A stretch of DNA of 64,000 bases from an uncultured bacterium (GTDB lineage: Bacteria > Bacillota > Clostridia > Lachnospirales > Lachnospiraceae), in NCBI GenBank assembly GCA_947381965.1, contig CANCXX010000013.1, positions 1 through 64,000 of the forward strand. Reading direction: 5' to 3'. Every line of letters begins with the position of its first letter. Position 1 is the stretch's first letter. Both the position numbers and the translations under genes were made by a program. The notes below the pieces were generated by a model, which was not told the DNA's origin, did no database searches, and saw nothing but the letters and a program-made list of their open reading frames with translations. Positions 1-28,758 of the stretch are shown one piece after another.

Positions 1-4
1 CATT

Positions 5-1148: not shown

Positions 1149-1339
1149 GGAGAGGCGGGAGAATGCCTGCGGATTGGATTGCTTGATAATCCAAAATCGG
1201 AGATGGCATGTTTTGTCAATGGCATGGCCGCACAGCGGTGCGTAGCACCATTGGCAAAAGCTGACAGCTCCGATAGACTCCAAGCAGCAATCTAAAAGAT
1301 TTTTAGCCACAAGTGTTACAAAAAGGCTTGACCACTACA

Positions 1340-1663
1340 TTCCCGCTCATTATCCCATACATTCCATCCAAGTTCAGCCAAAAGCTCGGCATCATTGACA
1401 GCAAAAGGAACATCCGTAAGACTGGTTTTAATTTTGAGTTTGGCAGTGACTGCCAGAGACAGCAGGATATCGAGAGGAATATGGTGGTTGTCTCTTCGTT
1501 TATCAGGAAGTACTTTAGAAAGCATGTCAATCAGCCCATGTTTTTTCATAGTAAGAACGATATCATCAATCAGATTTGGAAAAGCCATGTCAGCGGCATC
1601 AATATTTCCAGAGCGAATCGCCTGATATACCTTTTCTTTATCTTTGCTGCAAAGCTGAATCAT
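1340..1663 (-). pseudogene. N-terminal remnant of another transposase, cut by the IS3 element
   Basis: About 108 residues are read on the minus strand from an ATG at 1663, preceded by a good GGAGG ribosome binding site. The sequence (KHGLIDMLSKVLPDKRRDNHHIP, here quoted in part, then AELGWNVWDNERE) resembles the start of transposases common in Lachnospiraceae. The frame then enters the IS3 terminus and ends within a few codons. The catalytic part is absent, so this is a fragment. The family call rests on recognition of the N-terminus only. Confidence 0.6.
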
Positions 1664-1763
1664 AATTTAGTGCCTCCTCTATTTGTATAAAAAATCACAA
1701 ATACTATAGCAGATTTTGGCTGCTGTGTCCAAAAGACTTTTTGAAGTTGTTTTCAAAATACTG

Positions 1764-1818
1764 TTGATGAAAAAGAGTCTGGCATGATATAATATAAAAT
1801 CGTGTTGGACTCTTTTTC
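1764..1818 (+). promoter_or_regulatory. Promoter within an 11-bp inverted repeat, upstream of the integrase
   Basis: The perfect inverted repeat GAAAAAGAGTC (1769-1779) / GACTCTTTTTC (1808-1818) brackets a TATAAT-like -10 at about 1789-1794, with TTGATG about 18 bp upstream. The dyad over a promoter suggests an operator, but the repeat could also be the old outer end of the truncated transposase element next door. Confidence 0.45.
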
Positions 1819-1878
1819 AAAGCAGTAGGATTGTTTGTGAAGAATAACACCTGTTGTTTATTGAAAGGAGTTTATGTC

Positions 1879-3060
1879 ATGGGAAAAAACTTAAAAGGCA
1901 GAGAATGTGGAAAGGGTATCTGCCAGAGAAAAGACGGAAAATATTCGGCACGCTATTGTGCCAAAGATGGTAGCCGCCGTGAAAAACATTTTGCAACGCT
2001 GCCGGAAGCAAGAAACTGGCTTGCCGATGCACAGTATGAAGACAAACATAATACGGTAATCGTGGCATCTGATGTTACAGTAAATGAGTGGTTTGACTAT
2101 TGGATGGAAAACCTTATTTGCGGACTGGCCCCTAATACCAGACGTAATTACAGGGAGCGATATGTGCAGAATATCCAGCCTGTCATCGGAAGCATGCTGA
2201 TGGCAGACGTAAAGCCGATGCATTGCAAGGTGGTTTTGAACCGCATGGAAGCGGACTATGCCGGTTCCACGATCAAGCAGACTTACATTGCAATGGAAAC
2301 TATGTTTCGTTCCGCTGTGAGTAATGATATTATTTCCAAGCATCCGATGGACGGCGTCAGGTATACGAAACCTGTCCGCGCGGTTAGCGATATCCATTTC
2401 CTTACGGTGGAGGAACAGAATAAGTTCCTTGAAGCGGCAAAACGTTCTCACAATTACCGCCAATATGCGCTGTTGTTGGAAACGGGTTTGCGGACATCGG
2501 AGATGATCGGGCTTACATGGGATTCTATCAATTGGAAGAAACATACCCTGACTGTCAGCAAAACGTTGGAATACAGGCATCAGACACATATATGGAGGGC
2601 GGGACCACCCAAGACGGCTCACAGTTACCGTACGATCCCTTTAACAGACAGGGCATATCAGATTCTGAAAGACTGTTATGAGGAACGAAACTCCAGAAAG
2701 GAAGCGGAAACGTTATCCGGTGTTCTGGAATACATGGACAGGCGGACAGGCGAGACAAAATTTCTCGTTATGAGGGATCTGGTTTTTATCAATTTTCGGA
2801 CAGGGGAGCCGGCAAAGAACAGTTCCTATGATACGCACTTGTATAAGCTGTGTGATGAGGCGGGAATCAGGAGGTTTTGTATGCACGCGCTTCGGCATAC
2901 TTACGCTACCAGAGCAATCGAAGCCGGGATGCAGCCGAAAGTGCTGCAGCAGCTACTCGGACATGCGAGCATCAAAACCACGATGGAGCGGTATGTGCAT
3001 GTCACGGATGACTCGTTGACGCAGGCTGTCCGTCAGTTTGAACAGAACCGTGTCGTATAA
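1879..3060 (+). CDS. Tyrosine recombinase / phage-type integrase
   Basis: This 393-residue site-specific recombinase belongs to the lambda-integrase family. The start at 1879 ([13 protein letters not shown]) is preferred because AAAGGAG lies 8 bp upstream; the frame is open further upstream but has no ribosome binding site there. An N-terminal AP2-like arm-binding domain ([19 protein letters not shown]) is followed by a SAM-like core-binding domain and the catalytic domain. Catalytic residues are R205 (TGLRTSEM), H336-x-x-R339 ([10 protein letters not shown]), H362 ([10 protein letters not shown]) and Y372 (MERYVHV). No other phage or ICE gene is nearby, so it is probably a leftover of an integrated element. 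TGGTGCGG is repeated at 3096-3103 and 3107-3114 just behind the stop. Confidence 0.88.
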
Positions 3061-7528: not shown

Positions 7529-9763
7529 TTGAGAAGAAAGAAGAATAACAGATTTACAATTAAAATGCAAAAGAAACTTATTGTAATGTTTCTTGCAATG
7601 ATACTTTCTTTTGCAGGACTGTCCTATCGGTTGTTTGCCATTACCAGGGACGATGGGGAAAAATACAAAAAGCAGGTTTTATCCCAGCAAAAGTACGACA
7701 GCAGAACGCTTCCGTATAAAAGAGGGGCGATATTAGACGCAAATGGAAGTGTGCTTGCCGCCAGCGAAAAGGTTTACAATGTAATTTTGGATGCGGTGGC
7801 CGTATCGGAAAAGGAAGAATATCTTGAGCCAACACTCAGAGCCCTTAAAAGCGAGTTGGGGATTGATACAGGTGAAGTGCGTGATTATATAGCCAAAATG
7901 GGTGAAACCTCCCGATACAAAGTATTAGCAAAGCGGTTGGAATATGAAAAGATTTCAAAATTTATCGCCTTACAGAATGAGGAAGACTCTTTGATTAAGG
8001 GAATCTGGTTTGAAGAGGAATATAAGCGGATTTATCCGGGAAATTCTCTTGCCTGTGATGTGGTTGGATTTACTACCAATGATAATGTGGGTTCTTTTGG
8101 GCTGGAAGAGTATTATAATGATGTGCTTTCAGGCACTTATGGGAGAGAGTATGGGTACTTAAATGATGATTCCAATCTGGAGCGCACAACCATACCCGCA
8201 GAGGATGGAAACAGTATAGTAACCACCATTGATATAAACATCCAGAGTATTGTAGAAAAACATCTAAAAAAATTCGACGAGCAGTACAGGGATAACTATC
8301 ATAAGGGTAATGGAGCAGAAAATGTGGGATGTATCATAATGAATGTAAAAACAGGTGAAATCTTAGCTATGGCATCCTCACCCAATTTCAATCTGAACGA
8401 TCCAAGAAATACAGACGCCCTTATCGGTATGCCGGTATTAGATGAGGAAAATAAGAAAACCGGTGAGTATATTGACGAAGAAAATGTGAAAGCCATTGCC
8501 CAGGACAATGAAAATTTTTACAGACATTTGAATGCGCTCTGGAGAAATTTTTGTATCAATGACTCCTATGAACCAGGCTCCGTTTCCAAGCCCCTTACTG
8601 TGGCGGCAGGCATTGAAAGCGGCAGCATTACAGGAAACGAGGTGTATTACTGCAACAGGATACGTGAAATAGGGGGGCATAAAATTAAGTGTCATACCGT
8701 AGGCGGATGTGGCAATCTGACGGTAGCCCAGGGAATAGAGCGGTCCTGTAACGTAAATATGATGTATGTGGCGGAAGCAACCGGGGTGGATAAATTTATT
8801 GACTTCCAGCATATTTTTAATCTGGGGCTTAAGACCAATATAGACCTTGCAGGGGAGGCGAGAACTGCCAGCTTTGTATTTAACAAAAACACAATGCACG
8901 CCACAGAGCTGGCCACTAACAGTTTTGGACAGGGATTTAATGCAACAATGATTCAGATGGCGTCAGCTTTTGCGTCTGTTATCAATGGCGGTTATTATTA
9001 TGAGCCACATGTGGTGAGTAAAATTATAAGCCCTTCCGGGGCTACTGTGCAGAATATTGAGCCAAGACTGCTTAAGCAGACAATATCGGAAACCACATCT
9101 GCAAAAGTGCGGGAAATGTGCAATCTGGTGGTTTCCGGGGAGCGGGGAACAGGAAAGACGGCAAGACCGGCCGGTTATATGATCGGCGGTAAAACAGGAA
9201 CTGCGGAAACGCTGCCCCGTGGCAATAAAGAGTATGTAGTGTCTTTTATGGGATATGCGCCGGTGGACGATCCTGAAATACTGATTTATGTAGTAGTGGA
9301 CAGGCCCAATGTGTCCGGTGATATTATGGCGGATGCAAAGTATGCCACCAGGATAGTGAGAAGCATTCTTACAGAGGTGCTTCCCTACAAGGGGATTTTT
9401 ATGACTGAGGAGCTTTCAGATAAGGAAATTGAGGAATTAAATCAGCTTAAGATTGAAATTATGACCCCTCCTGCAGGAGAAGAAAACCAGGAGGGCCAGG
9501 AAGAGGAAGGAGCGGAAGAAGGAAGCAAAGAAGGGGAAAACGCTTCGGAAGGCAGTTCGCAGGAGCAGGGAGAGGGGACAAACGAAGCATGGAAAAACTA
9601 TCCCATTGACCCACAGACAGGCTATCTGGTTGAACCAGGTACCGGTGTATATATTGATCCGGAAACAGGAGCGGCAGTAGGAGGAAGCTTTGATGAGGGG
9701 TTATCGCCTGCAGGAACGGAAGGCGGGGCATCCCCTTCCCCCTCACCCTCCGGGGAGCCTTAA
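7529..9763 (+). CDS. ftsI: Class B penicillin-binding protein, FtsI/PBP2-like septal transpeptidase
   Basis: This DD-transpeptidase cross-links peptidoglycan at the septum. It starts at a TTG with AGGTGA 5 bp upstream and has one N-terminal membrane helix (about residues 12-32), a PBP dimerisation domain (about 50-220) and a transpeptidase domain. Active-site motifs are S351-VSK (EPGSVSK), S406-CN (RSCNVNM) and K555-TGT (IGGKTGTAE). The family's PASTA domains are absent. Instead the last 100 residues are an acidic Glu/Gly tail followed by a proline-rich DPQTG / DPETG segment. It sits 105 bases before a paralogous PBP gene, the same order as pbpB-spoVD in Bacillus. Confidence 0.93.
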   Translation: MRRKKNNRFTIKMQKKLIVMFLAMILSFAGLSYRLFAITRDDGEKYKKQVLSQQKYDSRTLPYKRGAILDANGSVLAASEKVYNVILDAVAVSEKEEYLEPTLRALKSELGIDTGEVRDYIAKMGETSRYKVLAKRLEYEKISKFIALQNEEDSLIKGIWFEEEYKRIYPGNSLACDVVGFTTNDNVGSFGLEEYYNDVLSGTYGREYGYLNDDSNLERTTIPAEDGNSIVTTIDINIQSIVEKHLKKFDEQYRDNYHKGNGAENVGCIIMNVKTGEILAMASSPNFNLNDPRNTDALIGMPVLDEENKKTGEYIDEENVKAIAQDNENFYRHLNALWRNFCINDSYEPGSVSKPLTVAAGIESGSITGNEVYYCNRIREIGGHKIKCHTVGGCGNLTVAQGIERSCNVNMMYVAEATGVDKFIDFQHIFNLGLKTNIDLAGEARTASFVFNKNTMHATELATNSFGQGFNATMIQMASAFASVINGGYYYEPHVVSKIISPSGATVQNIEPRLLKQTISETTSAKVREMCNLVVSGERGTGKTARPAGYMIGGKTGTAETLPRGNKEYVVSFMGYAPVDDPEILIYVVVDRPNVSGDIMADAKYATRIVRSILTEVLPYKGIFMTEELSDKEIEELNQLKIEIMTPPAGEENQEGQEEEGAEEGSKEGENASEGSSQEQGEGTNEAWKNYPIDPQTGYLVEPGTGVYIDPETGAAVGGSFDEGLSPAGTEGGASPSPSPSGEP

Positions 9764-9868
9764 CTGGTTAGCCGGAGATTTCCTGTAACAGCAAATCACA
9801 TAAGGATTAGAATAACCGCACAGATTGGGTAATAAATTATACTAATACCATATCTGTGGGGTTATTTT

Positions 9869-10990
9869 ATGACTAAAAACAAAACCTGCAACCGAAAAAA
9901 GATTGTCAGCACTTTTTTTGGCTGCCTTTTTGTGATTTTGTTTCTTGGAGGGAGACTGGCCTATCTGATGATTTTCCAATCTGATTATTATTCTGAAAAA
10001 GCCAGAGAGCTTCATGAAAGAGAAAGGAGCATAAAGGCTGCAAGAGGAAGAATTCTGGATGCCAATGGGACGGTAATCGCTGATAATAAAACAGTCTGCA
10101 CAATTTCAGTTATACATAATCAGGTAAAGGAACCTGACAGAATAGTGGAGGTCTTAAGCAAAGAGCTGGGATTATCGGAAGATTTTGTCCGTAAAAGAGT
10201 GGAAAAGTATTCTTCTATAGAGCGGATTAAAAGTAATGTGGACAAAGAAAAGGGCGATGCAATCCGGGCCTATAATCTGGAGGGAGTGAAGGTGGATGAA
10301 GACTATAAGCGTTACTATCCTTACGACTCTCTTGCATCTAAGGTTCTTGGATTTACTGGCGGAGATAATCAGGGGATTATCGGGCTGGAAGTAAAATACG
10401 AAGAGTATTTAAAAGGGGAGGAGGGGATGATTCTTACCGTAACAGACGCAAGAGGAGTGGAAATTGATGAAGCGGGGGAAGAGCGGATTGAGCCAAAGGC
10501 AGGAAATGACCTTTATATCAGCCTTGATATGAATATCCAAAGCTATGCCACCCAACTGGCAAAGCAGGTGATGGAAACCAAGCAGGCGGAGCGGGTGTCC
10601 ATACTGGTTATGAACCCCCAGAATGGGGAAATTATGGCAATGGCGGATGTACCGGAGTTTGATTTAAACCATCCCTATGATCTGCCGGAAGAAATGGCTG
10701 CAGACGGTCTGTCAGAAGAAAAAAAACAGGAGCTGCTAAATCAAATGTGGCGGAATGGATGTATCAATGATACTTATGAACCTGGTTCCACCTTTAAGAT
10801 TATCACTGCTGCAGCAGGCCTTGAGGGGGGTGTGGTTACTCCTCAGGACCAATTCAGCTGTCCGGGCTACATTATGGTGGAGGACAGAAGAATCCGCTGC
10901 CATAAAACCACCGGTCATGGCGCCGAAAACTTTATTCAGGCCACCATGAACAGCTGTAACCCGGTGTTTATGAAATGGCAGGATTTATAA
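9869..10990 (+). CDS. spoVD: SpoVD-like class B PBP, 5' part of a gene split by a recombinase element
   Basis: This is the N-terminal 373 residues of a PBP: a membrane helix (about 11-34), the dimerisation domain and the first half of the transpeptidase, with S307-TFK (EPGSTFK) and S362-C363-N364. Immediately after SCNPVF the frame enters foreign sequence (MKWQDL, stop). The KTG-box half is missing and found at 16276-16917. Family knowledge says SpoVD is the mother-cell PBP needed for spore cortex, and gene order after ftsI supports that identity. Without the rest it should be inactive. Joined through the 16-bp core it would encode 576 residues in frame. The ribosome binding site is weak (GGGG). 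Confidence 0.85.
   Translation: MTKNKTCNRKKIVSTFFGCLFVILFLGGRLAYLMIFQSDYYSEKARELHERERSIKAARGRILDANGTVIADNKTVCTISVIHNQVKEPDRIVEVLSKELGLSEDFVRKRVEKYSSIERIKSNVDKEKGDAIRAYNLEGVKVDEDYKRYYPYDSLASKVLGFTGGDNQGIIGLEVKYEEYLKGEEGMILTVTDARGVEIDEAGEERIEPKAGNDLYISLDMNIQSYATQLAKQVMETKQAERVSILVMNPQNGEIMAMADVPEFDLNHPYDLPEEMAADGLSEEKKQELLNQMWRNGCINDTYEPGSTFKIITAAAGLEGGVVTPQDQFSCPGYIMVEDRRIRCHKTTGHGAENFIQATMNSCNPVFMKWQDL
10956..10971 (+). repeat. Left attachment core (attL) of the spoVD element
   Basis: The core GTAACCCGGTGTTTAT repeats at 16274-16289 with a single G/A difference. It encodes the C-N-P-V-F codons of the SxN motif. The right half CCGGTGTTTATGAA belongs to the element: it is the mirror image of the element-side half of attR. 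Confidence 0.85.
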
Positions 10991-11007
10991 AAGATGGGTT
11001 TTGCTAA

Positions 11008-11802
11008 TTAGCCCAGAATTGCTTTATCGTTTGCAAATTCTTCCCCACTGGCTTCCTCAAATTTATGAAGAAGATCTTCTACTGTTAATTTTTTCTTTTC
11101 TTCTCCTCTGATATCCAGAATAATTTTTCCATCCATCAGCATTATCAGCCGATTCCCATGAGTAATTGCATCTTTCATATTATGGGTAATCATTAAAGTG
11201 GTAAGATAATCTTTATTGACGATATACTCAGTGGTTTCCAGAACCTTGGCTGCGGTTTTGGGATCAAGGGCAGCCGTGTGCTCGTCCAGAAGCAGCAGTT
11301 TGGGCTTTTGGAGGGTGGCCATAAGCAAAGTAAGGGCCTGACGCTGTCCGCCGGATAAAAGGCCAACCTTGGAGGTCAGGCGGGTTTCCAGGCCAAGTCC
11401 AAGTATTTTTAGGATCTCTTTGTATTCTTCTCTTTCTTTTCTTGTAATTCCGGGACGTAAAAAACGGCTTTTTCCCCGGCGCTTTGCCAGAGCAAGGTTT
11501 TCTTCAATTCCCATGGTTGCGGCGGTGCCAGTCATAGGATCCTGGAATACCCTTCCCAGAAATTTAGCACGTTTATGTTCAGGCAGCTTTGTAATATCTA
11601 TGCCGTCAATGAGAATTTGTCCCGTATCCACTGGCCATACGCCGGCAATTGCGTTCATCATGGTGGACTTTCCGGCGCCATTTCCGCCGATGACTGTGAC
11701 GAAATCCCCATCATTAAGGGTCAGGGAGAAATTGTCAAGGGCCAATTTTTCATTTACAGTTCCTGGGTTAAATATTTTGGTCACATTTTTAATTTCAAGC
11801 AT
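11008..11802 (-). CDS. ABC transporter ATP-binding protein (TrpZ/LivF-like, partner of an ABC_sub_bind importer)
   Basis: This 264-residue ATPase has Walker A GGNGAGKST, Q-loop FQDPMTG, signature LSGGQRQALTLLMA, Walker B LLLLDEHTAALDP and the switch histidine in MITHNM. It is the last gene of a reversed operon and overlaps the permease gene by 8 bases. The substrate protein (PF04392 type) and LivH-like permease point to uptake of an amino acid or small organic molecule. Tryptophan and tyrosine are known for related systems, but the substrate here is not readable. The stop lies 37 bases inside attL, so the whole gene is element cargo. Confidence 0.9.
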   Translation of the reverse strand: MLEIKNVTKIFNPGTVNEKLALDNFSLTLNDGDFVTVIGGNGAGKSTMMNAIAGVWPVDTGQILIDGIDITKLPEHKRAKFLGRVFQDPMTGTAATMGIEENLALAKRRGKSRFLRPGITRKEREEYKEILKILGLGLETRLTSKVGLLSGGQRQALTLLMATLQKPKLLLLDEHTAALDPKTAAKVLETTEYIVNKDYLTTLMITHNMKDAITHGNRLIMLMDGKIILDIRGEEKKKLTVEDLLHKFEEASGEEFANDKAILG

Positions 11803-12721
11803 TGGGCGCTCCTTTCTTTAGAGAGGATTTTTTAAAATATTTTGCTCTCCAGTAAGGGATAGCAAGGAAAATGGCAACCACAACTGCGGAGAAGAGCTTT
11901 AACCAGTCAGGCCCCACGCCTAAGCCCATTACCACCTGCAGTACTAGATAGTACAAAATGGAGCCAAGGGCAACGCCAATTAGTTTAAAGCCGAAGTTAT
12001 GGAAAACATGTCCAAAAACAGCTTCACCGATAATAACGGCGGCAAGTCCGATTACAATAGCGCCCCGCCCCATATTGATGTCCGCAAAGCCCTGATACTG
12101 GATAAGTAAAGCGCCGGATAAGGCAACCAGCCCGTTGGAGAGCATTAAGCCAAGCACCTTGGAAAGGTTTGTGTCAATACCCTGTGCTCTGGACATATGG
12201 TCATTACAGCCGGTAGCCCGCAGTCCGCAGCCTAATTCCGTTCCAAAGAACCAGTATAAAATGAGAACCAGCAGGATAATGGAAAGGGCTACCACAAAAA
12301 TAGTATTTCTATAAAAAGGAACACCTTTTATATACCGCAGGGAAACTAAAAGGTGGTATTTATCAACGTTAATTGCCTGATTTGCCTTTCCCATAATCTT
12401 TAAGTTTACAGAGTACAGGGCAAGCTGGGTTAATATGCCGGACAATATGGGGGGAATGCCCATAAAAGTATGGAATAGTCCGGTTACCAGTCCGGTAAGC
12501 ATACCGGCTAAGGTTGCGGCTAAGATAGATATAAAAACATTATGGCCGGTCAGCATCATAACGATACAGACAGCCCCTCCCGTACACATGGAGCCGTCAA
12601 CAGTCAGGTCGGCAAAGTCTAAAATCCGGTAAGTAATATAAATCCCAATGGCAGCGATACCCCAGATTAATCCCTGGGCAACGGCTCCCGGCATTGCATT
12701 TAGAAAGTAAGTGATGCTCAT
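11795..12721 (-). CDS. ABC transporter permease (BPD_transp_2 / LivH-like)
   Basis: This 308-residue integral membrane protein has about eight to nine hydrophobic segments and belongs to the branched-chain type permease family that pairs with ABC_sub_bind lipoproteins. The segment GCGLRATGCNDHMSRAQGI is the cytoplasmic coupling loop. It starts with MSITYFLNAMPGAVAQGLIWG. The 3' end overlaps the ATPase gene, which indicates translational coupling. It lies 128 bases behind the binding-protein gene in the same reversed operon. Confidence 0.9.
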   Translation of the reverse strand: MSITYFLNAMPGAVAQGLIWGIAAIGIYITYRILDFADLTVDGSMCTGGAVCIVMMLTGHNVFISILAATLAGMLTGLVTGLFHTFMGIPPILSGILTQLALYSVNLKIMGKANQAINVDKYHLLVSLRYIKGVPFYRNTIFVVALSIILLVLILYWFFGTELGCGLRATGCNDHMSRAQGIDTNLSKVLGLMLSNGLVALSGALLIQYQGFADINMGRGAIVIGLAAVIIGEAVFGHVFHNFGFKLIGVALGSILYYLVLQVVMGLGVGPDWLKLFSAVVVAIFLAIPYWRAKYFKKSSLKKGAPNA

Positions 12722-12849
12722 AGAGTCCCTCCAGACATTTTATATTAATATGTAATAAAAGGCAGCGAGAGAAATGGCTCTCCCGCTGTCAGGTGGAGAA
12801 GAATAGGACAGTAAATACTTCTCACACAATATGGACTGTCAGTTGTAAA

Positions 12850-13944
12850 TTATTCGGCGGTTTTGATTTCCTCATAATCTTCCGGAACAGTGATGCCTAA
12901 CGCTTCACAGTTTGCGGCATTGTACTTTTTGGTAAACAAAGGCGCATATTCAATAGGCATAGTGGAGATGTCAGCGCCTTGGGCAAGGATCTTTGCCGCC
13001 ATTTTTCCGGTAGCTACGCCGATATCATAATAGCTGATCGATAAAGTAGCCACACCACATCCTGCACAGATGCCTTCTTCCCCGGCAACAACCGGAATAC
13101 CAGCAGGAAGACAGATGTTGTTTACCAGCTCCGCATTGGAAGCAGCGGTGTTGTCGGTGGGAACATAAATAACATCTGATTTGCTTACCGCATTTGTTAC
13201 AACAGCGGAAAGGTCATTGGAATCTGAGAAGGAATAATATTCACAGCTGTATCCCTTTTCTTCAAGGAATGTTTTGATAGTATCTACCTGATACTGGGAA
13301 TTTGCCTCTGCAGAGCAATATAAAAGGCCCACATTTTTTGCATCAGGGAATAATTCCGCCAGCATATCTGCCTGTCCTTCCAATGGAGCAAGGTCAGAGG
13401 TACCGGAAATATTTCCGCCTACTGTTCCGGTGAAATCATCAATTCCAAGAGCAACACCATATTCTGTAACAGAGGTTCCGAGAATAGGGATTTCATTGGT
13501 GCCTGCGGCTGCTGCCTGCAGAGCGGGAGTTGCGTTTGCAAGAATTAAATCCACATCATTGGAAACAAAGCTGTTAATAATGGTGGAACAGGTATTTGCA
13601 TCGCCCTGTGCGTTCTGCATATCAAAGGTTACCCTATCACCAAGTTCTTCTTTCAGGGCATCCATAAACCCTTCGGTGGCAGCGTCCAGCGCTTCATGCT
13701 GTACCAGCTGACAGATACCTACCGTATAGGACTCTCCGTCTGTGGGAGTTGTTTCTGTATCAGCCTCATCGGGCTCAGCTTCCTGTGTACCTTCTTCCGC
13801 CTCCTGGGGCTGTGCTGCCTGTTCTTCTGAAGCAGCATTTGTGTTTTCCTGGCCCTTGGCAGCAGTTTCCTTACCAGAATCGCCGCAGGCAGCAAGGGTG
13901 CCGGCCATGGCCAAGGTTAAAAGTAATGCAAGTACTTTTTTCAT
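12850..13944 (-). CDS. ABC transporter substrate-binding lipoprotein (ABC_sub_bind, TrpX-like)
   Basis: This 364-residue lipoprotein has the signal MKKVLALLLTLAMAGTLAAC with lipobox cysteine at about residue 20. A Glu/Thr-rich linker (to about 60) leads into a periplasmic-binding fold (VGICQLVQHEALDAATEGF). The start at 13944 is chosen over an upstream in-frame ATG because GGAGGAA lies 7 bp ahead and the lipoprotein signal then begins at once. It would capture the ligand for the downstream permease and ATPase. It is first in the operon, under its own sigma-A promoter at 13997-14025. Confidence 0.92.
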   Translation of the reverse strand: MKKVLALLLTLAMAGTLAACGDSGKETAAKGQENTNAASEEQAAQPQEAEEGTQEAEPDEADTETTPTDGESYTVGICQLVQHEALDAATEGFMDALKEELGDRVTFDMQNAQGDANTCSTIINSFVSNDVDLILANATPALQAAAAGTNEIPILGTSVTEYGVALGIDDFTGTVGGNISGTSDLAPLEGQADMLAELFPDAKNVGLLYCSAEANSQYQVDTIKTFLEEKGYSCEYYSFSDSNDLSAVVTNAVSKSDVIYVPTDNTAASNAELVNNICLPAGIPVVAGEEGICAGCGVATLSISYYDIGVATGKMAAKILAQGADISTMPIEYAPLFTKKYNAANCEALGITVPEDYEEIKTAE

Positions 13945-13996
13945 AATGGTTTCCTCCATAAATATTAATTGTGCATGATAAATCACTGCGTATCAG

Positions 13997-14025
13997 ATTA
14001 TACTAGTTTAAAGCACTAAAGTCAA
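13997..14025 (-). promoter_or_regulatory. Sigma-A promoter of the element's ABC operon
   Basis: On the minus strand TTGACT (14025-14020), a 17-bp spacer and TATAAT (14002-13997) form a near-consensus promoter 53 bases before the start codon of the binding protein. The cargo operon is therefore probably expressed in growing cells. Confidence 0.85.
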
Positions 14026-14078
14026 TGGTATTTTAACGGGATTTCACGGAAAGGAGTCTGATGTATTTATAAGAGCTT

Positions 14079-14106
14079 CTTACACCTATGGGGTAAATTA
14101 TATGAT
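14079..14106 (+). promoter_or_regulatory. Possible promoter for the recombinase unit
   Basis: CTTACA (14079-14084), a 16-bp spacer and TATGAT (14101-14106) on the plus strand make a moderate sigma-A-like match. The inverted repeat GGAAACG / CGTTTCC (14108-14129) lies directly behind it. No clear SigE- or SigK-type promoter was found by eye. The assignment is weak. Confidence 0.35.
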
Positions 14107-14187
14107 AGGAAACGACTTTAGACGTTTCCGTTTGCGCCGCTTACATACTGTGAATACAGCAAAATACTCTATGCGGCCGTGGGCATT

Positions 14188-14231
14188 TATTTATAGTAAA
14201 CGGCAAATGTTTTTGCCGTTTACTATAAATA
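14188..14231. repeat. Perfect 20-bp inverted repeat in the element's divergent region
   Basis: The arms at 14188-14207 and 14212-14231 are perfectly complementary (core TAGTAAACGGCAAA) with a 4-base TGTT centre. It lies 52 bases before the small ORF and between divergent transcription units. There is no T tract behind it, so an operator or a transcript hairpin is more likely than a simple terminator. Confidence 0.6.
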
Positions 14232-14283
14232 TCTGGCCAGGGGGCGAATATAATGGAATAAAGCAGATAAAGGACAGGAATTT

Positions 14284-14430
14284 ATGGATGCTGATTGCGA
14301 AAGGATGCAGGTAAAAATCATGAAAAAGCAGTTGTTGCTGCAAATGACGGATTTGCTTGCAAAGCGGGGGCTGGTAAGCGAGGAGGAAAAAAATGGGATG
14401 AAAGCCATTATTTATCAGAAGGAAAGGTAA
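14284..14430 (+). CDS. 48-residue SHOCT-like protein, candidate recombination directionality factor
   Basis: This small ORF begins at an ATG with AGGACAGG about 6-13 bases upstream and stops 5 bases before the recombinase start, so the two are probably co-translated. The product MDADCERMQVKIMKKQ and following residues form a charged helical peptide whose second half (LLAKRGLVSEEEKNGMKAII) recalls SHOCT-type short domains. Later in-frame ATGs (14305 and 14320) are possible starts. Small proteins beside large serine recombinases often set excision direction, as SprB does for SprA in Bacillus subtilis. That role here is an inference from size and position only. Confidence 0.55.
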   Translation: MDADCERMQVKIMKKQLLLQMTDLLAKRGLVSEEEKNGMKAIIYQKER

Positions 14431-14435
14431 AGCTT

Positions 14436-16277
14436 ATGGAAAGAGTTGGAATTTATAACCGATGCAGTACAGAGGAAGAAAGCCAGAGAAATGCCTTAGC
14501 TGCCCAGGCAATGGAAAGCAGGGAAATTGCAGAGAAAAAGGGGTGGGAGATTGTCGGACAGTACATAGAGTCGGAAACAGGGACAGTCGCTTATAAGCGG
14601 AGTGAATACCAAAGGCTTCTTGAGGATATGGAAAAAGGAAAATTTGACCTTGTGATGATTAAGTCCATTGACAGGCTGACCCGTTCTGCAAGAGACTGGT
14701 ATTTTTTTCTAAGCAGGCTAAATGAAAACAGATTAAAACTGTATATTTATATAGAAGGAAAATTTTATACACCGGACGATAATTTGATTACTGGAATTAA
14801 GGCAATTCTCGCAGAGGATTTTAGCAGAGAACTTTCCAAAAAAATTAAGAATGCCCATAAAAGACGTCAGGAAAAAAAAAGCGGCTGCAATATAACCTGT
14901 GAGATGTTTGGCTGGGATAAAAAAGGCAGGGATACATATGAAATTAATGAAAAAGAGGCGGAGTACTACAGAACCGCTTTTTTGCTTGCAAGAGAAGGAA
15001 AGGGATTTTATACCATCAGCAATATGCTTTATGAAATGGGGGCAAGGGGAAAGAAGGGGCAGAAAATATCGGAAGTCCAGTGGCGTAATATGCTTTATGC
15101 GCCAAGGGCACACGGAACTGTAATATTAAATAAACGTATTTATAATTTTGACGCCCAAAAATATGAAAAAGTGCCGGAAAGCGGGTGGATTTTTATGGAA
15201 AATGCTCTCCCCCCCATTGTCTCAAAGGAGTATCAGGAGGAAGTGGTGGAAATACTAAAAAAAAGGGCCATGTGTCACAGCTTTGGATTTTCCGGAAAAA
15301 GGACGGACAGGGGGGAAGGGGTATGCAGAGACGGAAAGAAAGAAAGAGAGGGCTCTTTGAAGGCGGGAAAATACGAGCTGTCCGGAAAGCTGGTCTGTGG
15401 ACGGTGCGGTAGTGTCTATTACCGGACGGGCTCTATGGGAAAGGATACCTCCGCAGTATGGAAATGCGCCGCATTTCTTTCCGGCGGCAGGATAAGAGAG
15501 GAAAAAGATCATGGAGGATGTGATAACATCCATCTGGTGGAGACGGAAGCGATGGAGGCAGTAAATGAGGCTGTAAAACCTTATTTTGAAAAAGTGTTTG
15601 GGGGATGCGGAGATTTGGATTGTGACATAAGAAAAGTGATTGAAAAGATGCTGAAAGAAAAAAACAGTGATAAAAAATATGAAAAGCTTTGGAAAGAATA
15701 TGGAAAGCTTACCACTAAAAAAGATATGCTGGTTGATAAACTGTTAAATCATGTGATAGATGATAAGGATTTTACTAAATACCATGAAGACATAAAAGAA
15801 AAAATGGAACAGTTGGAAATGAAAATAAACGTCATAAAGCAGGAGCGTCTACAATATAATAACATAGAGATGCGTCTTGACGGTATTATGGATGTGGTCA
15901 GAAAGGAGAAAATGGCTGATCAGGCAAAGCTAAAAGAATTGGTTAAATTCATTGACCATATTCTGGTGCATAAGGATGGCAGACTGGAAATTATATTTGA
16001 TAAAGACAAGCCGGGACTGGAAAAGATCCTTAAAGTGGAAGCGGAATATATTCACGCCGACGGCTGCCGGAAAAGAAGGGAGGCGCATAAAAGGCAGATA
16101 CTGGAACTGCTAGATGGGCAGCCAAAGCTTCGTCTCAAAGATATTTCCACAATAATGGCCATGAGTGCATCTTATGTCAGCGCCAGGGTAAAAGAGCTTA
16201 AGGAAGAGGGAAAGCTGGAATATGTAAGGAACAAAGGCGCCGGTGCATGGCGTACCACAATTCCTAAACACCGGTAA
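14436..16277 (+). CDS. Large serine recombinase of the spoVD element
   Basis: This 613-residue recombinase has a resolvase catalytic domain (about 1-145, nucleophile S11 in YNRCSTEEES) and a recombinase DNA-binding domain. A zinc ribbon (CGRCGSVYY ... WKC ... GGCDNIHL) and a long coiled coil (about 405-490) follow. An extra C-terminal winged-helix-like segment (LKDISTIMAMSASYVSARVK) ends in TTIPKHR. Start 14436 has GGAAAGG 8 bp upstream; an open frame extends to 14295 but overlaps the small ORF. The stop TAA (16275-16277) is the centre of attR. It should catalyse attL x attR or attP x attB exchange at spoVD. Confidence 0.92.
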   Translation: MERVGIYNRCSTEEESQRNALAAQAMESREIAEKKGWEIVGQYIESETGTVAYKRSEYQRLLEDMEKGKFDLVMIKSIDRLTRSARDWYFFLSRLNENRLKLYIYIEGKFYTPDDNLITGIKAILAEDFSRELSKKIKNAHKRRQEKKSGCNITCEMFGWDKKGRDTYEINEKEAEYYRTAFLLAREGKGFYTISNMLYEMGARGKKGQKISEVQWRNMLYAPRAHGTVILNKRIYNFDAQKYEKVPESGWIFMENALPPIVSKEYQEEVVEILKKRAMCHSFGFSGKRTDRGEGVCRDGKKEREGSLKAGKYELSGKLVCGRCGSVYYRTGSMGKDTSAVWKCAAFLSGGRIREEKDHGGCDNIHLVETEAMEAVNEAVKPYFEKVFGGCGDLDCDIRKVIEKMLKEKNSDKKYEKLWKEYGKLTTKKDMLVDKLLNHVIDDKDFTKYHEDIKEKMEQLEMKINVIKQERLQYNNIEMRLDGIMDVVRKEKMADQAKLKELVKFIDHILVHKDGRLEIIFDKDKPGLEKILKVEAEYIHADGCRKRREAHKRQILELLDGQPKLRLKDISTIMAMSASYVSARVKELKEEGKLEYVRNKGAGAWRTTIPKHR

Positions 16278-16289
16278 CCCGGTATTTAT
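16274..16289 (+). repeat. Right attachment core (attR) of the spoVD element
   Basis: The core GTAACCCGGTATTTAT matches attL in 15 of 16 positions. The left flank TTCCTAAACACCGG is element-derived and mirrors the CCGGTGTTTATGAA arm found in attL. The right flank is host spoVD sequence. Confidence 0.85.
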
Positions 16290-16917
16290 TACGGTAGGTT
16301 TGCGGCTGGGGGTGGAAAATTACTATAATTACTTTACACAGTTTGGTCTGCTAAACAAAACGGGAGTGGATCTTCCGGGAGAGGCAGGCACAATTATGCA
16401 CAAGATGGAGGACATGAAGGCGGTGGAGCTTGCCACTGTATCTTTTGGACAGTCCTTTCAGATTACGCCGATACAGCTTGCCACTACAGTTTCCTCAATT
16501 ATTAACGGAGGAAGACGGGTAACGCCGCATTTTGCGGTCATGACGGCCGACAGGGAAGGAACAGAGTTAAAACGGTTCTCTTATCCGGCGTCAGAGCATA
16601 TTGTATCAGAGGAAACCTCATCTACCATGCGAATGATTTTAGAGCAGGTGGTAGAAAGCGGTTCCGGGAAAAACGGCTATGTGGAAGGGGCAAGGGTAGG
16701 AGGCAAAACAGCTACCAGCCAGACCCTTCCCAGAGGCAGCGGAAGATACATTGCATCCTTTTTAGGGTTTGCACCGGCAGATAATCCACAGGTGCTTGCG
16801 CTTGCCATTATCCATAATCCCCAGGGGGTTTATTATGGAGGGCAGATTGCGGCGCCGGTGGTAAGGCAGCTTTTTGAAAATATTCTTCCTTATTTGGAAA
16901 AAATGGATTATAATTGA
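16276..16917 (+). CDS. spoVD: SpoVD-like class B PBP, 3' part of the split gene
   Basis: This is the C-terminal 213 residues of the split transpeptidase, beginning NPVFITVGLRLGVENYY. It contains the LPGEAGTIMHK region, the SFGQSFQITP region and the KTG-box equivalent K507-T-A (VGGKTATSQ; numbering of the joined protein). The frame is open leftward to 16243 only because it runs into the recombinase gene; no ribosome binding site is seen, so this half is probably not made separately. KTA in place of KTG is unusual but conserved-looking. There is no PASTA domain. mraY follows after 13 bases. Confidence 0.85.
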   Translation, partial: NPVFITVGLRLGVENYYNYFTQFGLLNKTGVDLPGEAGTIMHKMEDMKAVELATVSFGQSFQITPIQLATTVSSIINGGRRVTPHFAVMTADREGTELKRFSYPASEHIVSEETSSTMRMILEQVVESGSGKNGYVEGARVGGKTATSQTLPRGSGRYIASFLGFAPADNPQVLALAIIHNPQGVYYGGQIAAPVVRQLFENILPYLEKMDYN

Positions 16918-16930
16918 GAGGTGCAGACAA

Positions 16931-17890
16931 ATGACGGGCAGCTATATTGTTGTGCCAATTTTAATATCCTTTGCGCTCAGCGCTGTCCTTGGCCCTTTGG
17001 TGATTCCTTTATTAAGGCGGTTAAAAGTGGGGCAGACCGTCAGGAATGACGGGCCAGGCACACATTTAAAAAAGTCCGGCACTCCCACTATGGGAGGGAT
17101 ACTGATTATGATCAGTGTGGCGGTCACATCCGTTCTCTATACAAAGACCCATCCTAAAATAACGCCGGTACTGTTTTTAACAATTGGTTTTGGGATGATA
17201 GGGTTTCTGGACGATTATATTAAAGTAGTGCTTAGACGTTCCATGGGTTTAAGACCCTGGCAGAAAATGTTTTTACAGATAGTGGTGACAGGTATTTTTG
17301 CACGTTACCTGATTCATATACCGTCTGTTTCTCTGTCTTTGAAAATTCCCTTTATGCAGGGGCAATATCTGGATTTGGGCAGGCTTAGCATTCCATTTAT
17401 GTTTCTGGTAGTGATTGGGACTGCAAACGGCGCCAATTTTACAGACGGACTGGATGGTCTTGCCAGCAGTGTAACTATAATGATAGCAACCTTTTTTACG
17501 GTGATTGCGGTGGGAACGGGAGCAGGAATTGCGCCAGTTACTTGTGCAGTTACAGGGGCTCTTTTGGGATTTTTGCTTTTCAATGTCCATCCTGCCAGTG
17601 TTTTTATGGGAGATACAGGTTCCCTTGCTCTTGGAGGATTTGTTGCGGCAAGCGCATATATGATGCAGATGCCGTTGTTTTTGCCGATTGTGGGTTTTAT
17701 TTATATGGCGGAAGTTTTGTCGGTGATAATACAGGTTGTTTATTTTAAAATAAGCGGAGGAAAAAGAATATTTAAAATGGCGCCTCTTCACCATCATTTT
17801 GAACTTTGCGGGTGGAAAGAGACGAAGGTGGTCGCCGTCTTTTCTATTCTCACAGCGATGCTGTGTCTGATCGCACTTGCAGGAATGTAG
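16931..17890 (+). CDS. mraY: Phospho-N-acetylmuramoyl-pentapeptide-transferase MraY
   Basis: MraY makes lipid I by transferring phospho-MurNAc-pentapeptide to undecaprenyl phosphate. The start at 16931 (MTGSYIVVPI) has GAGAGGTG upstream. About ten membrane helices carry the markers GTPTMGG, FLDDYIK, NFTDGLDGLA, FMGDTGSLALGG and MAPLHHHFE, all hallmark motifs. The 319-residue length is normal. It is an essential gene lying directly downstream of the split spoVD, so its transcription must start inside the element or pass through it. Confidence 0.97.
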   Translation: MTGSYIVVPILISFALSAVLGPLVIPLLRRLKVGQTVRNDGPGTHLKKSGTPTMGGILIMISVAVTSVLYTKTHPKITPVLFLTIGFGMIGFLDDYIKVVLRRSMGLRPWQKMFLQIVVTGIFARYLIHIPSVSLSLKIPFMQGQYLDLGRLSIPFMFLVVIGTANGANFTDGLDGLASSVTIMIATFFTVIAVGTGAGIAPVTCAVTGALLGFLLFNVHPASVFMGDTGSLALGGFVAASAYMMQMPLFLPIVGFIYMAEVLSVIIQVVYFKISGGKRIFKMAPLHHHFELCGWKETKVVAVFSILTAMLCLIALAGM

Positions 17891-25779: not shown

Positions 25780-25817
25780 GAACTGGTACGTAAGAAATGG
25801 AGGTGAAAAATTGCGAA

Positions 25818-26624
25818 GTGCAGCTGCAAGGTACCATTTATATTGACAGTATATTTTTACTAAATCTGGTGATGGATTTATATCTGCTGACACTTACCGC
25901 AAAAACAACCGGAAAGACGATTACATATAAAAGAGTTTTTGCAGGAAGCGTCGCAGGAGCCGCAGGATACTGCATTATTTTGTGTCTGCCAATTCCATAT
26001 GTGTGCAAGGTGCTTTTTGGCATGGTGCCAATAGGGGGATTAATGATAAAAATTGTCTGTCAGACAAAAGGATGGGCAGAACTGCTTCGCGGGATGGGTA
26101 CCCTTTTTACATTTTCCTTTTTTTTGGGCGGATTCATTATTTTTCTTAGGGATAAAATAAGAATATCTGCAAGGCATGAAAATTCTGTCGCTGTTCTGGC
26201 GGGAATGGGATTTGCCGGTTTTGTAATTATACGGAAATTGATTGTGAGATTCAGGGAAAAAAGAGACAATTATTTTTGTAAGGTAATATTTCCAGGGGAT
26301 ATGGGAGATGTGACATTTACTGCGCTAATTGACACAGGAAACGGCCTGACAGACCCTTTAAGCAAAAAACCGGTTGCGATACTTGATGCAGAGGAGTGGA
26401 AAAGCCTGAAAATATGGATGAAGCCGGAGAAATATAAAATTATACCTTATCACAGCATTGGCAAAGAGTGCGGAGTGCTGGAGGGATATGAAATAGATAC
26501 TATGAAAGTAACAGGAAAAGAAGGGGAGAAACAATTTGATAAAGTGATTGTAGCGGTATTTAAGGGGAAGGTATCGCAAAAGGGCTGCTATCAGATGATA
26601 CTGCCGCCGGAATTATCAGCATAA
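25818..26624 (+). CDS. spoIIGA: SpoIIGA, pro-SigE processing peptidase
   Basis: SpoIIGA is the membrane aspartic peptidase that removes the SigE prosequence after a forespore signal. The N-terminal half has five to six membrane helices beginning YIDSIFLLNLVMDLYLL. The C-terminal half carries the catalytic aspartate in ALIDTGNGLTDP (D172 from this start). GTG 25818 is preferred: the upstream ATG 25797 overlaps GGAGGTGA (25799-25806), which is placed to serve a start downstream of it. sigE follows after 64 bases, the standard spoIIG order. Confidence 0.92.
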   Translation: MQLQGTIYIDSIFLLNLVMDLYLLTLTAKTTGKTITYKRVFAGSVAGAAGYCIILCLPIPYVCKVLFGMVPIGGLMIKIVCQTKGWAELLRGMGTLFTFSFFLGGFIIFLRDKIRISARHENSVAVLAGMGFAGFVIIRKLIVRFREKRDNYFCKVIFPGDMGDVTFTALIDTGNGLTDPLSKKPVAILDAEEWKSLKIWMKPEKYKIIPYHSIGKECGVLEGYEIDTMKVTGKEGEKQFDKVIVAVFKGKVSQKGCYQMILPPELSA

Positions 26625-26688
26625 AAAACAACAAAACAGCGGACGCCTGGAAAGGCGGGAGCGGTACTTGAAATAGGAGGACTGGAAA

Positions 26689-27432
26689 ATGATTTTTAAG
26701 ATAGCGATTCCGGGGAAGCTTCAGTTTAAGCTTTACCGCAGGGAACCTAATTTTTTGATGGCAAAACAGGGAGATGTGCATTACATTGGCGGTTCAGAGG
26801 TGCTTCCACCACCCCTTGAAATTGAAAAGGAAAATGCGGTTATCAGTGACCTTGGGACGGAATATGAAGACCAGGCCAAATCAATTTTAATTGAACATAA
26901 TTTACGCCTGGTGGTATATATTGCAAAAAAATTTGACAACACCGGAGTGGGAGTGGAAGATTTGATTTCCATAGGGACAATTGGACTGATTAAATCTATC
27001 AATACATTTAACCCGGATAAAAATATTAAGCTGGCAACTTATGCATCCAGGTGTATTGAAAATGAAATATTGATGTATTTGCGCAGAAATAATAAAACCA
27101 AAATGGAAGTATCTATTGACGAACCCCTTAATGTGGACTGGGATGGAAATGAACTGTTGCTTTCGGATATTCTTGGCACGGACGAAGATGTAATTTACAA
27201 GGATATTGAAAATGAAGTGGAGAGAAAACTTTTATTAAAAGCGATTGATAAGCTTTCAGAGCGGGAGAAGACAATAATCAACTTAAGATTTGGACTTGGC
27301 GCCCCGGATGGCCGGGAGATGACACAAAAGGAGGTGGCGGAGCTTCTGGGAATTTCACAGTCTTATATTTCTAGACTGGAAAAAAAAATTATGAAGAGGC
27401 TTAAGAAAGAGCTGATAAGGGAAAGTTACTGA
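26689..27432 (+). CDS. sigE: RNA polymerase sporulation sigma factor SigE
   Basis: SigE is the early mother-cell sigma factor, made as an inactive precursor. The N-terminal prosequence [20 protein letters not shown] precedes region 2 ([32 protein letters not shown], quoted in part) and regions 3-4 with a C-terminal helix-turn-helix ([20 protein letters not shown]). The 247-residue length is about normal. AGGAGG lies 9 bp before the ATG. SpoVD is a SigE-dependent product in Bacillus, which links this gene to the split gene about 10 kb upstream. Confidence 0.97.
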
Positions 27433-27441
27433 AGGAAAGGA

Positions 27442-27546
27442 TGCTCCGGGCTTATTATTTCTGGGGACAACGGGCCAGGTGGCGGCTTAAGGCCAGCCAA
27501 CCGGCGGCTGGCTTGGACATAAAGGGGATACGGATTGCCCGGAGCA
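27442..27546. ncRNA. Candidate structured RNA between sigE and the ylmC-like gene
   Basis: TGCTCCGGGC (27442-27451) and GCCCGGAGCA (27537-27546) close a 105-base GC-rich domain with a perfect 10-bp stem. Inside, GGTGGCGGC / GCCAGCCAACC and GCCAGCC / GGCTGGC are overlapping alternative hairpins. The region lies between convergent genes and has no T tract after the closing stem, so it does not look like a plain terminator. It was not matched to a known riboswitch by eye. It could function on either strand. Confidence 0.45.
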
Positions 27547-27585
27547 GACTGTTAAAGGGCAAAAGCAAAATTTCTTGTATAAATT

Positions 27586-27819
27586 TTAACAGCGGATATC
27601 AACAATGATGATATCTGGGCCTATTTGTTTGATATCCTTGTATGGGATACAGATATCCGGTTCTGTACACAGGAGATTAAAAAATTTATTGCTGCTGGGG
27701 ATGAAAACCTTGCAGATTTGTCCGCTGCACTGGTCAAATTCCAGGTCAGAAATCCGTCCAAGTTTTCTGCAGTCCCGCATATTTATCACATCTTTACACT
27801 TCAGTTCGGAAAAAAGCAT
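27586..27819 (-). CDS. YlmC/YmxH family sporulation protein (PRC-barrel-like)
   Basis: This 77-residue protein (MLFSELKCKDVINMRDCRKL) belongs to the small YlmC/YmxH family found in spore-formers, with a PRC-barrel-like beta fold (GRISDLEFDQCSGQICKVFI and IPYKDIKQIGPDIIIVDI). The molecular role is unknown. The gene is convergent with sigE and divergent from sigG, its usual neighbourhood in Clostridia. The ribosome binding site is weak. Identity rests on recognised sequence and synteny. Confidence 0.82.
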   Translation of the reverse strand: MLFSELKCKDVINMRDCRKLGRISDLEFDQCSGQICKVFIPSSNKFFNLLCTEPDICIPYKDIKQIGPDIIIVDIRC

Positions 27820-27978
27820 ACCTGCGGCCTTTCTTTTTCTTAGTATAATTTATTTTATGCCGGAATGATAAAAGGGTTCGAAAGCATGAATATTTTCCTG
27901 CCAATTTGTGAATGATTTCTATTACAGACAATTGCCCCAAAAAGCATGTTTGTAATCGTAGCAGGAGGAAATAAGGAC

Positions 27979-28758
27979 ATGGCGCAGGGAAAAGTAGAAA
28001 TATGCGGAGTGAACACGGCAAAGCTTCCGCTTTTAAAGGCAGACGAAAAAGAAAAGCTTTTTGAGCAGATAGAGTCGGGGGACAAGGAAGCTAGGCAAAA
28101 ATATATTGAGGGAAATCTGCGTTTGGTCTTAAGTGTGATTAAGCGTTTTTCATCCAGTAATGAGAATGTGGATGATTTGTTTCAAATTGGCTGTATTGGG
28201 TTGATTAAGGCAATTGATAACTTTGATTCCTCATTGAACGTAAAGTTCAGTACCTATGCGGTTCCCATGATTATCGGGGAAATACGCCGTTTTTTACGTG
28301 ATAACAATACAATCCGGGTCAGCAGGTCGTTAAAGGACACCGCCTATAAAGCGATTTATGCAAAGGAAAACCTTCTTAAACAAAATATGAAAGAGCCGAC
28401 TATAAATGAAATTGCATCGGAAATCGGTATATCCAAAGAAGATATTGTGTATGCACTGGATGCTATCCAGAATCCGGTCAGTTTGTATGAGCCGATTTTT
28501 ACGGATGGCGGAGATGCGCTTTATGTGATGGACCAGATAAGCGATAAGAAGAATAAAGAAGAAAACTGGGTGGAGCATCTCTCGTTAAGTGAAGCCATGA
28601 AAAAGCTGGAAGACAGAGAACATGAAATTATCAGTCTGCGTTTTTTTGAAGGGAAAACCCAGATGGAGGTGGCAGAGATGATTGGCATTTCACAAGCCCA
28701 GGTGTCAAGGCTTGAAAAAAATGCGCTGAAGGTGATGAAAGATTATTTGACAGCCTGA
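27979..28758 (+). CDS. sigG: RNA polymerase sporulation sigma factor SigG
   Basis: SigG is the late forespore sigma factor. The start at 27979 (MAQGKVEICGVNTAKLPLL) gives the family N-terminus; AGGAGGAAATAAGG lies upstream, and the frame extends to 27946 without better support. Region 2 (GNLRLVLSVIKRFSSSNENVDDLFQIG, quoted in part), region 3 (EPTINEIASEIGISKEDI) and region 4 (EVAEMIGISQAQVSRLEK) are present. The 259-residue length is typical. Co-location with spoIIGA and sigE is standard for Firmicutes. Confidence 0.96.
   Translation: MAQGKVEICGVNTAKLPLLKADEKEKLFEQIESGDKEARQKYIEGNLRLVLSVIKRFSSSNENVDDLFQIGCIGLIKAIDNFDSSLNVKFSTYAVPMIIGEIRRFLRDNNTIRVSRSLKDTAYKAIYAKENLLKQNMKEPTINEIASEIGISKEDIVYALDAIQNPVSLYEPIFTDGGDALYVMDQISDKKNKEENWVEHLSLSEAMKKLEDREHEIISLRFFEGKTQMEVAEMIGISQAQVSRLEKNALKVMKDYLTA

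Follow-up and report, generated by a model that had tools for sequence, protein, structure and literature searches.

A SpoVD-type penicillin-binding protein gene split at one codon by a serine-recombinase element in Parablautia and other Lachnospiraceae

Introduction

Can a sporulation gene that is broken by a mobile element still yield its protein? The question is raised by a 64,000-nt stretch of DNA from an uncultured Lachnospiraceae bacterium (the window); the source genome is a 92-contig draft, 96.7% complete. At 9869-16917 (+) the window carries a gene for a SpoVD-type penicillin-binding protein (PBP), interrupted by an element of 5,318 bp that encodes a large serine recombinase.

The interrupted gene and its neighbours

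The relevant features of the cluster are as follows.
7529..9763, + strand: upstream class B PBP in the pbpB/ftsI position of the dcw cluster (PF00905, PF03717)
9869..10957, + strand: 5' segment of spoVD, ending with codon 363 (TGT), the SxN Cys
16276..16917, + strand: spoVD 3' segment, from Asn of SxN; contains the KTA motif
16931..17890, + strand: next dcw gene, presumably mraY by synteny; open reading frame from 16874, ATG taken from the sequence
25797..28758, + strand: spoIIGA-, sigE- and sigG-type genes (sporulation context); SigE and SigG above a cut-off, SpoIIGA below

The window contains a division and cell-wall cluster in which an ftsL-like ORF (7034), a class B PBP and the split class B PBP are followed by mraY-, murD- and ftsW/spoVE-like genes; several of these names are assigned by synteny. 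With the gene order of B. subtilis as reference, the split gene stands in the position of spoVD: it follows the first class B PBP of the dcw cluster and precedes mraY. SpoVD is the best NCBIfam model for both halves (317.6 bits for the 5' half, 227.3 bits for the 3' half). The upstream PBP reaches 391 bits with this model, against 529-572 bits for three intact SpoVD relatives; these relatives lie below the curated TIGR02214 cut-off of 688, with SpoVD still their best model. The label SpoVD-type is given for the best model and the gene order rather than for the cut-off. Bacilli with two class B PBPs in the dcw cluster have been described (PMC10693644). A Pfam profile search reported no PASTA domain in the split gene; the PASTA domain of C. 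difficile SpoVD is described as dispensable for morphologically normal spores (PMC8417463).

When the two parts are joined they give an uninterrupted PBP of 576 residues, in frame, as an earlier note on this DNA had read from the letters. That note had named an intact second spoVD as an argument against reconstitution. The genome has nine transpeptidase matches, two of them the halves of the split gene, and no second intact spoVD is among them; a search of the same genome with the joined protein at E <= 1e-60 matches only the two half-gene places.

Distribution of the split gene

The genus is Parablautia (Lachnospiraceae), covered by 37 genomes; named records are P. intestinalis D8-82, a cultured commensal whose spoVD is split, and P. 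muri D42-62. In 17 genomes spoVD is split at the same codon, in 18 it is uninterrupted and in two (G012, G013) there is no match. The uninterrupted group includes G025, which is cut by a contig end, and G020, where two matches form one 606-residue frame. Both halves are kept in all 17 split genomes, on one contig in 15. The orthologous recombinase adjoins the 3' half in 16 of them; in the other, G026, the contig breaks at this point.

A scan for the recombinase gives the same picture. The 3' half of spoVD is found at most 210 bp from the recombinase match in 32/32 loci; the scan sees close relatives only because it uses two short peptide patterns. A 5' half is also present in 24 of these loci, while the other eight have it elsewhere in the genome (same contig in five). 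By the spoVD tree, 17 split loci lie outside Parablautia, among them those of Roseburia hominis An869, an Acetatifactor muris MAG and an Agathobacter MAG; G271 adds one 5' half where its contig ends. Across a spread of 397 family genomes, with doubtful places rechecked, the same-codon split occurs among the matches listed in G000, G001, G108, G166 and probably G271; G242 falls at contig ends. Genome G047 carries a different element, at spoVD codon 168.

The split at one codon is far beyond chance, given 17 of the 37 genus genomes and all 32 recombinase-scan loci. The gene is thus broken by a serine-recombinase element as first noted. The suggested comparison with close strains does find the element at the same codon; it is not private to one strain, and spans the genus and beyond.

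The junction and attachment sites

Two composite sites flank the element.
10944..10973, no strand: attL; attB left arm, AA (10958-10959) and attP right arm, with a dyad on AA
16262..16291, no strand: attR; attP left arm, AA (16276-16277) and attB right arm

Crossover falls at a TGT|AA core within the catalytic motif SxN, whose Ser and Cys come from the left and Asn from the right. The earlier note described the same 16-bp core at both ends; the copies (GTAACCCGGTGTTTAT and GTAACCCGGTATTTAT) match at 15 of 16 positions. An identical 16-bp core is rejected, both by this mismatch and because the left copy belongs to the element. Alignment of 35 usable junction pairs (36 rows, of which G271, at a contig end, was dropped as an artefact) places a short shared core, centred on the AA of TGT|AA, and AA is common to both sides in every pair. 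The right, chromosomal side encodes NPVF in all 35; the left, element side is of 19 types and encodes NPVF in four. Judged from these alignments, the left NPVF copy is element DNA.

Reconstructed attB and attP form dyads around AA. With the centre on AA the mean matches (of 9) are 4.94 and 6.28, and shifts of 1 to 5 bring them to no more than 3.39 and 3.97; these means are taken over all 36 rows, artefact row G271 included. The stop codon of the recombinase (16275-16277) overlaps the crossover AA.

It is very improbable that the two halves work as separate polypeptides and need no excision. The conservation of both halves would fit such an arrangement; it is opposed by a break inside SxN, with the interrupted left frame reading SCK at the motif position in 22/35 loci, and by the copies behind the core, whose differences suggest that the right one alone is host coding sequence. 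It also leaves the conserved attachment sites and the recombinase without explanation.

Content of the element

The element carries the following features.
11008..11802, - strand: ABC transporter ATPase (cargo; PF00005); same cluster in Parablautia elements
11795..12721, - strand: ABC transporter permease (cargo; PF02653)
12850..13986, - strand: substrate-binding protein, TrpX-like (cargo; PF04392)
13997..14025, - strand: sigma-A-like site before the transporter, TTGACT-N17-TATAAT, 11/12 consensus bases
14177..14242, no strand: 31-nt inverted repeat upstream of the recombinase operon
14227..14254, + strand: sigma-E-like site preceding the small ORF-recombinase operon, AAATATC-N13-AATATAAT, p 0.083
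14284..14430, + strand: 48-aa conserved small ORF, candidate recombination directionality factor (RDF)
14436..16277, + strand: large serine recombinase, 613 aa (PF00239, PF07508, PF13408)

The large serine recombinase reported between the halves is confirmed, as its Resolvase, Recombinase and Zn-ribbon domains all score above cut-off. Its orthologues are 52-66% identical, and its best NCBIfam model is XisF (66.7 bits, against a cut-off of 375). The best model for the substrate-binding protein is TrpX (232 bits, below the cut-off of 390). The transporter promoter depends on the single 11/12 site, since the sigma-70 scan gave 12 sites against 13.9 expected by chance. No RNA family is over threshold in 9400-17400; there is one sub-threshold match (E 0.15).

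The 15 contig-complete Parablautia elements all contain the same three transporter genes and the recombinase, in 4.8-8.0 kb; some have extra ORFs. Outside the genus the same transporter is present at loci L128 and L139, and 15 of the 17 loci have other cargo: an FGGY kinase, Hsp70 with a chemotaxis receptor, sugar ABC genes, or ParA with a conjugation coupling protein (these identities rest on 10 scanned proteins). Element length there is 3.5-24.7 kb, with about 38.7 kb in G041 from coordinates. G108 has one extra ORF between the recombinase and the spoVD 3' half. The relative in G038, also at this site, encodes ParA together with a T4SS coupling protein; G041 and G043 have relatives of both.

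No phage structural gene was found among the element proteins (four searched against Pfam, five against PHROGs). In PHROGs the recombinase matches integrase family phrog_95 (237 bits), the ATPase matches generic ABC families and the binding protein matches one weak, function-unassigned family (E 0.00036). No relative of the element was found in viral contigs. A counter-example is a 32-kb faecal record called Bacteriophage sp., which has a near full-length relative of the recombinase (34.9% identity). An evident prophage is rejected on the Pfam, PHROGs and viral-contig results despite this one phage-labelled record.

The small ORF and promoter-like sites

Of 34 elements, 33 have a relative of the small ORF, roughly KKQLLLNISEILAQRGLISEEEK, directly before the recombinase. 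The only exception is L139, where the recombinase frame is also cut to 283 aa. Neither Pfam nor NCBIfam gives a significant family for the four relatives of the small ORF that were tested (best E 0.05-0.06), and PHROGs has no match to the ORF of the window. Its size and place fit known RDFs, which include GirX at 42 aa (PMC5595907) and CD1234 at 53 aa (PMC10747680); the small protein is therefore a candidate RDF.

In 27 of 33 elements the best sigma-E-like site, close to xAATATT-N13/14-(C/A)ATAnnnT, is found 48-70 nt upstream of the small ORF. It reaches p < 0.05 in 18 elements; the other 15, G000 included, are not significant. Combined shuffle p-values are 4e-9 (17 Parablautia) and 3e-9 (16 others), which overstate the case because the sequences are related rather than independent and six of the 33 best sites are elsewhere. 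The weights of the scan were set from a consensus, and some small-ORF start codons were picked by eye. In spoIVA upstream regions, used as a positive control only, CATA(C/T)ATT is in the best match of 18/20; the site at the recombinase operon resembles the Parablautia spoIVA promoters.

A second site lies before spoVD itself.
9810..9838, + strand: possible sigma-E-like spoVD promoter, doubtful; GAATAAC-N14-AATAAATT, with bases that also form a hairpin

This pattern, written after looking at the sequences, is present in 45/54 upstream regions. The overlapping stretch 9810-9867 folds into a strong hairpin (-25.8 kcal/mol, z -7.2). Conservation of the pattern may thus reflect the RNA fold alone, which weakens the promoter reading.

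Selection and frame integrity

Frame-disrupting mutations in sister strains were named by the earlier note as evidence against a working gene; there is no internal stop or frameshift in the 34 half-genes of the split Parablautia. Joined frames lack an internal stop in 15/15 cases and end at 575-577 codons in 14, with the end of the G022 frame extrapolated past the alignment. Among seven close pairs of split genomes, the 5' half has a dN/dS of 0.02-0.03 and the 3' half one of 0.00-0.02; in a wider half-gene comparison dS is saturated in most 5'-half pairs, and the close pairs are the better test. Values are 0.09-0.18 for the recombinase and 0.07-0.48 for the small ORF (13 of 14 pairs, with finite dS). 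Ratios this low show strong purifying selection on both halves, and thus on a whole SpoVD; the recombinase is under selection as well, and the small protein to a lesser degree.

It is hardly credible that the gene is in decay and its lineage giving up sporulation. The two genomes of 37 that lack a spoVD of this type (G012, G013) are what such a lineage might show; the undamaged frames and a dN/dS far below 1 are not. Sporulation markers are also widespread: SpoIVA has a match in 37/37 Parablautia genomes, and a SigK-type match apart from SigE is found in 34 (absent in G009, G012 and G031; all below the model cut-off). Decay is rejected because the substitution pattern contradicts it.

A split sigK was also considered and is rejected; the 34 genomes each have one long match, from profile positions 24-25 to 223-226. 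G026 has an extra partial SigK-type match besides the long one. In a search for a second split gene of polysaccharide deacetylase type, many paralogues are among the matches listed.

Proposed mechanism

The locus is probably an old sporulation gene-intervening element, excised in the mother cell with reconstitution of SpoVD. The skin-like reading given in the earlier note is supported by the in-frame empty site, purifying selection, dyad attachment sites, the sigma-E-like site, undamaged frames in sister species and a search that found no second spoVD. We infer excision during sporulation, along with when and in which cell it happens, what the small protein does, and the past losses discussed below. 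In growing cells and in the forespore the element would stay in spoVD. In the mother cell, sigma-E would switch on the two-gene operon of the element, encoding the putative small directionality factor and the recombinase. Recombination of attL with attR at TGT|AA would delete a 5,318-bp circle, and the in-frame 576-residue SpoVD could then be made for cortex synthesis. The germ line would keep the element because the mother cell dies.

This mechanism predicts that SpoVD is not needed here at polar division. The B. subtilis gene is described as expressed in the mother cell after division; C. difficile SpoVD, in contrast, is reported to be expressed from the onset of sporulation and to act already at polar division (PMC10693644). 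Early action of the C. difficile type would come too early for mother-cell excision and counts against excision in the mother cell. Two further points are counted on the same side: the promoter evidence is consensus matching, and the SpoVD relatives lie below the TIGR02214 cut-off.

Possible gain, loss and transfer

Recombinase and spoVD trees agree in close Parablautia pairs; G022 and part of the other-genus group disagree. This points to probable vertical descent in the close pairs. At L139 the ATPase is 87% identical compared with 59-61% for spoVD, and the element there looks like a case of horizontal transfer. The spoVD tree requires at least five changes of the split label; its split rows without a clean SCNPVF join (22/35) hold up to four element-derived residues.

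Such apparent movement between lineages would suit an ordinary integrative element for which spoVD serves as attachment site, with excision tied to stress or transfer and SpoVD rebuilt by chance in a subpopulation. The conjugation genes of some same-site relatives (G038, G041 and G043, above) mean that excision might serve transfer, which counts against mother-cell excision, and in C. botulinum a subpopulation with excised yin is reported at all time points (PMC10747680). This alternative is nevertheless unlikely: the recombinase operon has a sigma-E-like site, the ORFs seen in the Parablautia elements are mainly transporter, small ORF and recombinase, the trees mostly agree within Parablautia, and spoVD dN/dS is very low.

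Five empty-site genomes lack the transporter (0/5): G006 and G028, which are sisters of split G019, and G030, G034 and G036, which group with split G033. Among the other 13 empty-site genomes, 10 keep the transporter in ordinary chromosomal places, and no relative of the element recombinase is near these copies in the stretch seen. Precise loss of element and cargo appears to be the simplest account for the five species; fresh gains of the element by G019 and G033 are possible instead. The Fisher value of 0.0065 takes no account of relatedness, the choice of these five species followed inspection of the tree, and the G036 genome has a completeness of just 59%. A further uninterrupted clade (G010, G018, G020, G023, G024, G031) keeps the transporter elsewhere in 5/6 genomes and sits in the same unresolved part of the tree as the five cargo-less species.

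A more tentative extension of the mother-cell reading is that the element is a domesticated switch kept by hostage cargo: a two-gene sigma-E module at one spoVD codon across Lachnospiraceae, with cargo swapped and with the small protein as a new tiny RDF family. Loss from the germ line would cost the transporter, because the Parablautia element holds its only close copy. Relatives keep the transporter elsewhere in the chromosome, and a sporulating mother cell would delete the element copy.

Implications and comparison with known elements

With reconstitution in the mother cell as the preferred reading, the few sporulation genes believed to be restored through programmed excision would now include one for a cortex-synthesis PBP. 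Known intervening elements are described in sigK, spsM, spoVFB, gerE and yabG (PMC10747680, PMC4191935). A search by title and abstract, mostly outside the subscription literature, gave no description of an interrupted spoVD. On the best reading, spoVD is a new target gene for a skin- or gin-like element, without phage structural genes and with a metabolic transporter. The element is common at one codon in many gut Lachnospiraceae rather than in single strains, and can be told apart from an evident prophage. With split species beside never-split and perhaps cured ones, it becomes testable why such elements persist. Annotators should be aware that spoVD may be labelled broken or absent in many gut spore formers.

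The fdxN element of heterocyst cyanobacteria, whose excision in a terminal cell restores a gene, is alike in its recombinase, as XisF is the best model here, far below cut-off. It differs in phylum, gene and cargo.

The skin element in sigK (B. subtilis; C. difficile, with CD1231 and CD1234) is alike in its in-frame split of a sporulation gene, its large serine recombinase and its small RDF (a candidate here). In C. difficile the RDF is reported to be under sigma-E and SpoIIID control (PMC5025042). The spoVD element differs in that its target is a cortex PBP rather than a sigma factor, no phage structural gene was found, its cargo is metabolic, and a single promoter-like site precedes its adjacent small gene and recombinase. 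The vfbin (spoVFB), SP-beta (spsM) and yin (yabG) elements likewise interrupt sporulation genes that are restored by excision; they are described as prophage or prophage-like and have other target genes (PMC10747680). The gin element in gerE of B. cereus is also non-phage, with a large serine recombinase and a tiny partner (GirC with the 42-aa GirX); as described, it is 28.6 kb long with three recombinases (PMC5595907), whereas the spoVD element has one recombinase in 5.3 kb and occupies one codon across many species.

An interrupted and a possibly interrupted spore-wall gene

In G047, a genome from outside Parablautia, the spoVD gene (locus L161:1451-11364) is broken at codon 168 by an insert of 8.2 kb, which carries three consecutive serine recombinases and a SulP permease; the frame is open in each half of the gene. 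This interruption is independent of the Parablautia-type one.

Within Parablautia, a PdaB-like polysaccharide deacetylase is possibly a second interrupted spore-wall gene. At two loci (L059:1501-3544 and L065:927-2967), a serine recombinase is followed immediately by the 3' part of the deacetylase gene; these stretches cover the 3' part, and the 5' part falls outside them. The recombinase differs from that of the window's spoVD element (33% identity).

Cargo and surroundings of the spoVD elements

Cargo varies between spoVD elements. The element of the Parablautia genome G003 (L072) has a 403-aa ORF, which resembles a transposase gene, between the ATPase and permease genes; that of Roseburia hominis An869 (L163:3896-7410) carries genes for an Hsp70-family protein and a chemotaxis receptor. 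At the 5' end of the window (1-3060) are ORFs resembling transposase and tyrosine recombinase genes, adjoined by a presumed ychF-like GTPase ORF.

At the SpoVD KTG motif (encoded within 16276-16917), 70 of the 73 aligned sequences have KTAT, from split and intact genes alike; the remaining three were not read at that position. A strong hairpin (9810-9867; -25.8 kcal/mol, z -7.2) ends just before the spoVD start and includes the promoter-like site; comparable inverted repeats, judged by eye, lie upstream of spoVD in most relatives. A spoVD of the window's type was searched for and not detected in two Parablautia genomes (G012 and G013); SpoIVA is present in both.
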